Source: Synechococcus sp. A18-25c
GTDB taxonomy: Bacteria > Cyanobacteriota > Cyanobacteriia > PCC-6307 > Cyanobiaceae
DNA: 64,000 nt
Assembly (NCBI RefSeq): GCF_014280035.1
Contig: NZ_CP047957.1
Span: 1,302,001 to 1,366,000 of the forward strand
Reading direction: 5' to 3'
The stretch's first letter is position 1. Each line of letters opens with the position of its first letter. The notes under the pieces were generated by a model that saw only the letters and a list, made by a program, of their open reading frames with translations, did no database searches and was not told the origin of the DNA. Below, piece by piece: positions 13,967 to 48,913 of the stretch. Both the position numbers and the translations under genes were made by a program.

Positions 13967-15133
13967 ATGCCGAATGATGCCGGCACAATCGGGGTCGTCG
14001 GGGGTGGTCAACTGGCCTTGATGCTCTGTGAGGCGGGTCAGGCCAGAGGAATTCCGGTTGTTGTTCAGAGTGCGTCGGATCAAGATCCCGCCGCGGCATC
14101 TGCGCAGCGTCAGGTGATCGGTACTCCCACCGATGCGGCAGCTACCGCATCACTGGCTGCTTGCTGCAATGGCATCACGTTCGAAAATGAATGGATTGCT
14201 GTTGAGGCCTTGCTGAGGCTTGAGCGCGACGGCGTGTCGTTTAGGCCATCCATTCAGAGCCTGAAGCCACTGGTGAACAAGCTGTCGCAGCGTCGCTTGC
14301 TGAATGAGCTTGCCCTGCCCAGTCCTGATTGGGTCGGCCTGGATGAGATTGACCGCAAAACGCTTGAACTGCCGGACGATTGGCGATTCCCTGTGATGGC
14401 CAAGGCAGCGCATGGCGGTTACGACGGCAAGGGCACCCGTGTGATCAAGGATCGTGTTGCCTTAAGCGAGCTGCTCAGCAGCGTTATGACCAAGGACTGG
14501 TTGCTGGAAGCCTGGGTGCCGTATGACCGTGAACTTGCTCTGGTGGTGAGCAGGGATCAGCAGGGTCGGATCCGTTCGTTTCCTTTGGTAGAAACACACC
14601 AGAGCAGTCAGGTCTGTGACTGGGTTCTGGCACCTGCACCGGCGGAGCAACTGCTGGAGGCAACGGCCTACAACATTGCAGCCTCTTTGCTCACGCATCT
14701 TAATTACGTGGGTGTGATGGCCCTGGAATTTTTCTATGGGCCGCAAGGCTTGATGGTGAATGAAGTCGCCCCTCGCACCCACAATTCCGGGCACTTCTCC
14801 ATCGAAGCTTGCAGCAGCAGTCAGTTCGATCAGCAGTTGTGCATTACTGCCGGTTTACCCGTGCCTTCCACGGAGTTGGTGGCTGCTGGTGCCCTGATGG
14901 TCAACCTGCTTGGTCTTGGACCTGATGCGGAGTTTTCACTTGATGAGCGTCTGTCGGCTTTGCAGGCCATCCCCGATGCGCATCTCCACTGGTATGGAAA
15001 GGAGGAAATGCCCGCGCGCAAGGTGGGGCATGTCACCGTTCTGCTTCAGCAACCCGACGCCGACGGCAGAGATGGCGAAGCAAGAGAAGTCTTGGAACGT
15101 ATTCGGTCGGTGTGGCCAAATCCATTAAATTGA
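13967..15133 (+). CDS. purK: N5-carboxyaminoimidazole ribonucleotide synthase
   Basis: 388 residues. The enzyme uses ATP and bicarbonate to carboxylate AIR in purine synthesis. The ATP-grasp features are IGVVGGGQLALMLCEAG at the start, VMAKAAHGGYDGKGTRVI (nucleotide loop), LLEAWVPYDRELALVVSRD and VNEVAPRTHNSGHFSIEAC (metal and substrate site). Length is normal. The 6S RNA candidate starts 34 bases after the stop, an arrangement I recall from other cyanobacteria, so read-through from purK may contribute to that RNA. Confidence 0.95.
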   Translation: MPNDAGTIGVVGGGQLALMLCEAGQARGIPVVVQSASDQDPAAASAQRQVIGTPTDAAATASLAACCNGITFENEWIAVEALLRLERDGVSFRPSIQSLKPLVNKLSQRRLLNELALPSPDWVGLDEIDRKTLELPDDWRFPVMAKAAHGGYDGKGTRVIKDRVALSELLSSVMTKDWLLEAWVPYDRELALVVSRDQQGRIRSFPLVETHQSSQVCDWVLAPAPAEQLLEATAYNIAASLLTHLNYVGVMALEFFYGPQGLMVNEVAPRTHNSGHFSIEACSSSQFDQQLCITAGLPVPSTELVAAGALMVNLLGLGPDAEFSLDERLSALQAIPDAHLHWYGKEEMPARKVGHVTVLLQQPDADGRDGEAREVLERIRSVWPNPLN

Positions 15134-15167
15134 CGAAGGACTCCCTGATTGGTGACAGCCTTTCTCT

Positions 15168-15341
15168 AGTGCTCTGATCTGACTCTCTTTCGACTTGGGG
15201 GGACTGTCGTGATGGTGCCGTAGACCGGCCTTGCAGCCGGAAACGAATCCCCACTTTGTCGCCCCTTCTGGTAACTCCAGGTCGAACACTGGGGCTCGCA
15301 CGGTCAGGTGGTCCACCTATTCAAAATCCTTGTCAGAGACT
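15168..15341 (+). ncRNA. ssrS: Candidate 6S RNA
   Basis: There is no protein frame here, but strong RNA structure. AGT-G-CTCTGAT (15168-15178) pairs with GTCAGAGACT (15332-15341) over ten pairs with one bulged G, closing a roughly 174-base element, which is the size of cyanobacterial 6S RNA. Inside are CCGGC-(6)-GCCGG at 15225-15240, CTGG-TAACT-CCAG at 15268-15280, and GCCCC/GGGGC at 15261/15291. Unpaired stretches just inside the closing stem could form the central bubble. The position right after purK fits the location known for the 6Sa gene in cyanobacteria. 6S RNA mimics an open promoter and binds RNA polymerase. Exact ends and the internal fold are not proven. Confidence 0.6.
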
Positions 15342-15685
15342 GGGATTAGAACAAATGGCAGATATCGGAGGAAGGGGGGATTGCCACTTAGTTGCCACAC
15401 GCTCAACCCGCTCCAAGCATCACGAGACCACGCTTCAGAAAGTCCACAGCGCTGGCGTCTGGGTTGGTGGATTGATAGGTCTGCAGGTTTCCACCAATGG
15501 CTCATCACATCACTGTGATCGACAACGCAAACGCTCTGGGTGAGTTGGCAAAGAGCCACTGGCGCATGGGTTGAATTTCAGAGCAGTGCACCCCAAGCAC
15601 GTCAGTCGCTTCCTCTTAAGAAGGTACTGATTCATCATCACCATCTTCGGCAGCGTTGCTAAGACAGCAGTAACGCAATCGCCGC
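15342..15685. other. Gap after the 6S candidate; one possible 25-codon gene
   Basis: About 340 bases with no long gene. Reading frames on both strands look unlike protein, except a 25-codon plus-strand frame at 15497-15574 (MAHHITVIDNANALGE...). It has a balanced residue composition, but no clear ribosome-binding site could be seen. No tRNA or clear terminator was found. Confidence 0.4.
15497..15574 (+). CDS. Possible 25-residue peptide
   Basis: The frame ATG to TGA encodes a 25-residue peptide beginning MAHHITVIDNANALGELAKS. Composition is that of a soluble amphipathic peptide with no rare residues. The region upstream (GCAGGTTTCCACCA) has only a weak purine stretch. Conservation in related genomes would decide; as a lone short frame it can be chance. 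Confidence 0.25.
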   Translation: MAHHITVIDNANALGELAKSHWRMG

Positions 15686-15973
15686 ATGAACAAATTAATA
15701 CTTTTAATCACTCTATTCATCACGTTGCCCGTTAAGGCGGAAATGTCGTTGCCTTATGGGCTTAATGGATATTCGGTTTGGTATGGCTACAGCTATGGAT
15801 CGGCGATGACGTTATGTTCATTAGTGTTTGGCAATCAACTTTCAGCCAAAGCAGCTCGGGACAATATGAATGAATTCATTGCTGGACTCGATCTTAAACA
15901 TAAGATTCCTGCCGAGGCTGGATTCTCTGCAGCCAGAAATGCACAAGAGTTTTGCAATCAATTATTTGATTGA
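15686..15973 (+). CDS. Small secreted protein of unknown function
   Basis: 95 residues. A clear signal peptide (Lys-containing start, then LILLITLFITLPVKAEM) implies export to the periplasm, with cleavage near VKA. The mature part is about 75 residues, Tyr- and Gly-rich at first (GLNGYSVWYGYSYGSAM) and helical afterwards, with two cysteines (TLCSLVF and EFCNQLF) that could pair. I do not recognise a family. It stands alone at the left edge of the AT-richer stretch. Confidence 0.65.
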   Translation: MNKLILLITLFITLPVKAEMSLPYGLNGYSVWYGYSYGSAMTLCSLVFGNQLSAKAARDNMNEFIAGLDLKHKIPAEAGFSAARNAQEFCNQLFD

Positions 15974-48770: not shown

Positions 48771-48824
48771 GCAGTGCTTGTGAAACGCCCTGCTACATTC
48801 TCACCCGTGCCCCACGATGCCCCT

Positions 48825-48913
48825 GGAGAGGTGGCCGAGTGGTCGAAGGCGCAGCACTGGAAATGCTGTATAGGGGCAACTCTATCGAGGGTTCGAATCC
48901 CTCCCTCTCCGTT
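48825..48913 (+). tRNA. tRNA-Ser (anticodon GGA)
   Basis: The acceptor stem GGAGAGG/CCTCTCC is complete with discriminator G at 48913. The anticodon arm is CAGCA-CTGGAAA-TGCTG with anticodon GGA, and a long variable arm typical of class II tRNA precedes the T arm GAGGGTTCGAATCCCTC. No CCA is encoded. It reads UCC and UCU serine codons. A strong terminator follows. Confidence 0.97.

Follow-up and report, generated by a model that had tools for sequence, protein, structure and literature searches.

Work on E. coli has established that 6S RNA acts as a polymerase mimic and involves a product RNA (summarized in PMC5721685), and in Synechocystis deletion of the 6S gene is reported to slow both recovery from nitrogen starvation and recruitment of SigA (PMC5721685). 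For marine Synechococcus, a transcript of 175–185 nt encoded behind purK and named Yfr7 was published in 2005 (PMC1242208). That report gives Northern signals of 175–185 nt in four marine Synechococcus strains, WH 7803 included, and mapped transcription starts for MED4 and SS120 (PMC1242208); Yfr7 has since been termed homologous to 6S RNA (PMC2518516). A single start site, lying in purK, is described for Nodularia, and two start sites for other cyanobacteria (PMC3610870). Here, we analyze a 64,000-nt stretch of the genome of Synechococcus sp. A18-25c (hereafter the window) and find that an element directly behind purK is almost certainly the single 6S RNA gene of a marine Synechococcus-type cyanobacterium, an ortholog of Yfr7/SsaA that would work by the mechanism set out below. 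By the account in PMC1242208, the gene, its site behind purK and its transcript size in marine Synechococcus have been known since 2005.

The element matches the Rfam covariance model for 6S RNA over its full length. A scan of the window with Rfam 15 returned two matches above threshold, a 6S RNA and one tRNA (48825–48911). The 6S RNA gene (Yfr7/SsaA/6Sa) occupies 15135–15318 on the plus strand, where RF00013 scores 81.3 bits (cut-off 46.4; E = 1.9e-14) and is covered from model position 1 to 187 of 187. A first-pass annotation of this DNA had named a 6S RNA candidate and proposed a scan with this model as the check, and the full-length match, well over the cut-off, bears the identification out. 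It had also expected gene callers to miss the RNA, which can hold for callers of protein genes only, as a routine Rfam scan finds it. Searches of 60 genomes, including that of A18-25c itself, gave an RF00013 match in every one (59/60 above the cut-off), as against 5/14 control genomes (4 over the cut-off); E. coli was also matched. The A18-25c genome holds one RF00013 copy, and its 81.3 bits is the second lowest score among the 31 genomes of its own genus. The analysis shows membership in the family by the covariance-model match, together with a conserved outer fold carrying compensatory changes, the synteny and the single copy.

Conservation among relatives sets the probable ends of the RNA. 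All structure counts reported here come from an alignment (A1) of 37 of the 60 genomes, which constitute the family of the window, with the 23 more distant genomes left out. In this alignment conservation begins at the fourth base of the match and falls off at ~15318: column identity is 0.82–0.89 in the two bins spanning 15298–15317 and 0.38–0.47 from 15318 on. The mature RNA thus probably runs from ~15138 to 15314–15318 (177–181 nt). The first-pass annotation had recognized a structured noncoding element after purK, which is indeed present, yet its extent of 15168–15341 starts 33 bases too late and ends 23 bases too far relative to 15135–15318, and the stem that it drew across those ends fares no better (below). 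Folded as a single sequence, 15137–15318 reaches −71.6 kcal/mol (z = −2.14; 4/200 shuffles as good), only moderately better than shuffled sequences.

The outer fold is supported by compensatory changes. Bases 15138–15151 (plus strand) form the 5′ arm of a 14-pair closing stem and pair with the 3′ arm at 15301–15314 (plus strand). Among the 37 family sequences 98.3% of 518 cells in this stem are paired, and sliding the partner arm by one to three columns lowers pairing to 31.7–55.4%. Double changes occur in 6/14 pairs and occupy 67 cells, where shuffles average 20.5 and 0/500 are as high, although six such pairs also occur in 15/500 shuffles and as many pair types in 7/500, and the 37 genomes behind these statistics are related. 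A further 7/14 pairs are invariant and therefore uninformative. The copy in the window has one C-U mismatch among the 14 pairs, and 8/36 other family sequences likewise have one mismatch each, at pairs other than that of the window. When the Rfam structure is mapped onto the alignment, 82.9% of cells are paired, 14 pairs show double changes, and the structure exceeds all 500 shuffles on each of five measures. Seven of its 50 pairs are nonstandard in most of the 37 sequences (columns 2-189, 17-175, 38-158, 72-128, 75-126, 79-118 and 80-117; pair 3-188 is nonstandard in 18/37). The apical hairpin (helix 6; 15225–15240, plus strand), with five pairs CCGGC/GCCGG, is paired in 100% of cells and has double changes in 2/5 pairs. 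Pairing in the other inner helices is 100% for helix 5, 73.5% for helix 3 and 68.7% for helix 4. An unguided RNAalifold prediction agrees on the outer stem and on the apical hairpin.

The most conserved part of the RNA belongs to its central region. On the 5′ side of that region, 15168–15185 (plus strand; alignment columns 34–51) forms the block of highest column identity, in which 16/18 columns are invariant in 37 sequences and the other two are at least 90% identical; mean column identity is 0.98 over columns 31–40 and 1.00 over columns 41–50. The bubble expected of a 6S RNA is placed here by the Rfam model, RNAalifold draws a different pairing, and invariant columns cannot decide between the two. 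From its position in the Rfam model and the E. coli geometry, this block is likely the template side for the product RNA.

Synteny with purK is close within the family and loosens outside it. In the window, purK (13967–15133, plus strand), encoding 5-(carboxyamino)imidazole ribonucleotide synthase, is an open frame that matches NCBIfam models TIGR01161 (353.3 bits, cut-off 318.4) and NF004679 (437.7 bits, cut-off 326), and its product matches the Pfam domains ATP-grasp and PurK_C. With the purK stop at 15133 and the RNA match starting at 15135, the RNA begins within a few bases of the stop, in agreement with the earlier placement of the element directly after purK. That 6S genes adjoin purK in known cyanobacterial strains, also claimed in the first pass, is borne out in the family: 36/37 family genomes have purK upstream in the same orientation, and the contig of the 37th (G002) starts only 56 bases ahead of the RNA, so that its locus contains no purK. 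In the 23 more distant genomes, purK is upstream on the same strand in seven, at gaps of 22–151 bases, and downstream in one, and in the remaining 15 no purK turned up in the flank searched, which reached at most 1.5 kb (less on the upstream side of G044). PurK also led to a second set of 47 named loci, drawn from Synechococcus, Prochlorococcus, Cyanobium and unclassified relatives; 46/47 have the invariant core CTGATCTGAC after purK, and the sequence of the 47th breaks off where purK ends. The two sets of loci are partly overlapping and not independent, with at least 12/47 apparently in common with the first.

Other features of these loci and of the window were observed in passing. In G035 (L046) the PurK match ends at query residue 346 and the reading frame continues into the 6S gene, a departure from most family genomes that may reflect either another PurK tail or a change of frame. 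A 95-residue open frame further downstream in the window (15686–15973), past the 6S gene, has a start that by eye resembles a signal peptide; it matched nothing in Pfam or NCBIfam up to E 0.1. The tRNA returned by the Rfam scan is a tRNA-Ser (anticodon GGA, 48824–48912), the sole other above-threshold match and the sole tRNA found in the window.

The promoter of the 6S gene is probably embedded in the end of purK. A probable −10 box, TAAATT (15126–15131, plus strand), overlaps the purK codons TTA and AAT as well as the T of the TGA stop, and ends six bases ahead of where the closing stem starts. In 37/37 family genomes a TANNNT motif has its end 6 or 7 nt upstream of that stem (30 at six), against 8/1853 upstream control positions, and in the genus of the window it overlaps the end of the purK coding sequence. 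Against a promoter here, a general sigma-70 scan of 15000–15700 found none (0.3 expected), presumably because a −35 box is wanting, and a terminator scan of the same interval found a single terminator-like site, inside purK (0.7 expected).

Codon usage at the end of purK is consistent with selection on this box. The leucine codon within the PurK tail is TTA (14) or CTA (14) in 28/28 genomes sharing the tail, that is, a PurK ending in Pro-Leu-Asn/Asp/His with or without a following Trp or Trp-Ser. At other leucine codons of the same purK genes TTA or CTA is used in 106/1395 cases, and within the 40 codons preceding the tail leucine in 1/114. These 28 of the 37 genomes exclude G002, which has no purK in its locus, and G014, G018 and G031–G036, whose PurK tail differs. 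Because the genomes are related, neither the motif counts nor the codon counts represent independent events. The purK frame of G014 and G018, both of the genus of the window, ends earlier, and there the box is kept and is opened by a TAA stop; the purK stop likewise opens the box in G032, G034 and G036, from three other genera of the family, and in G031 and G033 the TANNNT motif lies beyond purK. We consider it likely that in the genus of the window the end of purK serves two uses, with selection for 6S transcription fixing both a rare leucine codon (TTA/CTA) and the C-terminal tail of PurK. We found no description of a −10 box within purK codons in the literature consulted, although a 2007 paper on two Prochlorococcus 6S types may contain one. 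The overlap is a small and testable point; if true, mutations in this part of purK, silent ones included, could have unnoticed effects on the 6S RNA.

We weighed three other accounts of the region against a 6S RNA gene at 15135–15318. One retains a 6S RNA but gives it the first-pass ends, 15168–15341, closed by a ten-pair stem between 15168–15178 and 15332–15341. This stem can be drawn, with nine Watson–Crick pairs, one T-G pair and G15171 bulged; the minimum-energy fold of 15168–15341 contains all ten pairs, and they are also possible in G021, which is closest to the window in PurK identity (90%). As a closing stem it is not conserved. Only the window and G021 form all ten pairs (G035 forms eight), each of the ten fails in 10–32 of the 37 sequences, and covariation in relatives, which the first pass had named as a way to refute its stem, is lacking: 44.6% of 370 cells are paired, against 44.7% in shuffles, with 0 double changes. 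The 3′ arm falls outside the conserved RNA, while the 5′ arm is part of the invariant central block and lies within the Rfam match. Nor is 15168–15341 as strongly structured as had been claimed, since its fold (−59.1 kcal/mol, z = −0.75) is equaled or bettered by 46/200 shuffles. With pairing at shuffle level in 37 sequences we rejected this closing stem, and we regard these ends for the RNA as extremely improbable.

Two further accounts deny the region a 6S gene altogether. The region might instead encode protein, as three open frames do exist (15125–15316 and 15033–15254 on the minus strand and 15231–15518 on the plus strand) and frames on the complementary strand have been annotated in WH 8102 and MIT 9313 (PMC1242208). 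Yet Pfam and NCBIfam searches up to E 0.1 gave no match for any of these frames, on which basis coding on either strand was rejected; conservation tracks base pairs with compensatory changes, and PMC1242208 reports strong RNA signals but no detected expression of those frames. A protein-coding reading of the region has next to no probability in our estimate. We give slightly more room, though still very little, to the idea that the segment is a structured 3′ UTR or processed tail of purK, without a promoter of its own and without function as a 6S RNA. Such a reading would fit an RNA that probably starts about four bases past the purK stop and a stretch, 15000–15700, in which the simple sigma-70 scan returned no promoter. 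Against it, the RF00013 match spans the full model, TANNNT stands at a near-fixed distance in 37/37 genomes, the RNA occurs in 15/23 more distant genomes whose fetched flank yielded no purK, and the transcription starts in MED4 and SS120 were mapped (PMC1242208).

For the preferred reading, a 6S RNA gene with its own promoter, we propose the following mechanism. An RNA of ~177–185 nt would be made from this promoter, with a −10 box probably situated within the final codons of purK, and would fold into the 6S shape of long closing stem, central region and apical hairpin. As a mimic of an open promoter, it would bind RNA polymerase carrying the housekeeping sigma factor (SigA) when nutrients run short, and it would be released once the polymerase has used the central region as template for a short product RNA. 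Family membership leads us to expect transcription, polymerase binding and the product RNA in this strain. The analysis confirms a standard global regulator in the genome of Synechococcus sp. A18-25c, and the corrected 6S coordinates matter for annotation and for the design of probes or deletions.

Comparison with described 6S RNAs places the gene closest to those of marine picocyanobacteria. The Yfr7 genes of marine Synechococcus and Prochlorococcus (WH 7803, WH 8102 and MIT 9313), as described in PMC1242208, share with it the site, strand, size class and outer fold. One of the genomes in our set (G009) is Synechococcus WH 7803, identical over 2995/2995 bases compared, and its 6S RNA, from the same genus as the window, is 89% identical to that of the window, with some substitutions; the C-U mismatch of the closing stem falls at different pairs in the two. 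The cyanobacterial 6S RNA of a 1997 report and the one studied by deletion are also located directly downstream of purK, according to PMC1242208. Outside the family of the window, in the 23 more distant genomes examined, the tie to purK is weaker or missing. At greater distance, the RNA matches the full length of the family model that includes E. coli 6S/SsrS (RF00013), whereas several consensus pairs of that model are absent from the family of the window. The gene neighboring E. coli SsrS is a different one from the purK found here.
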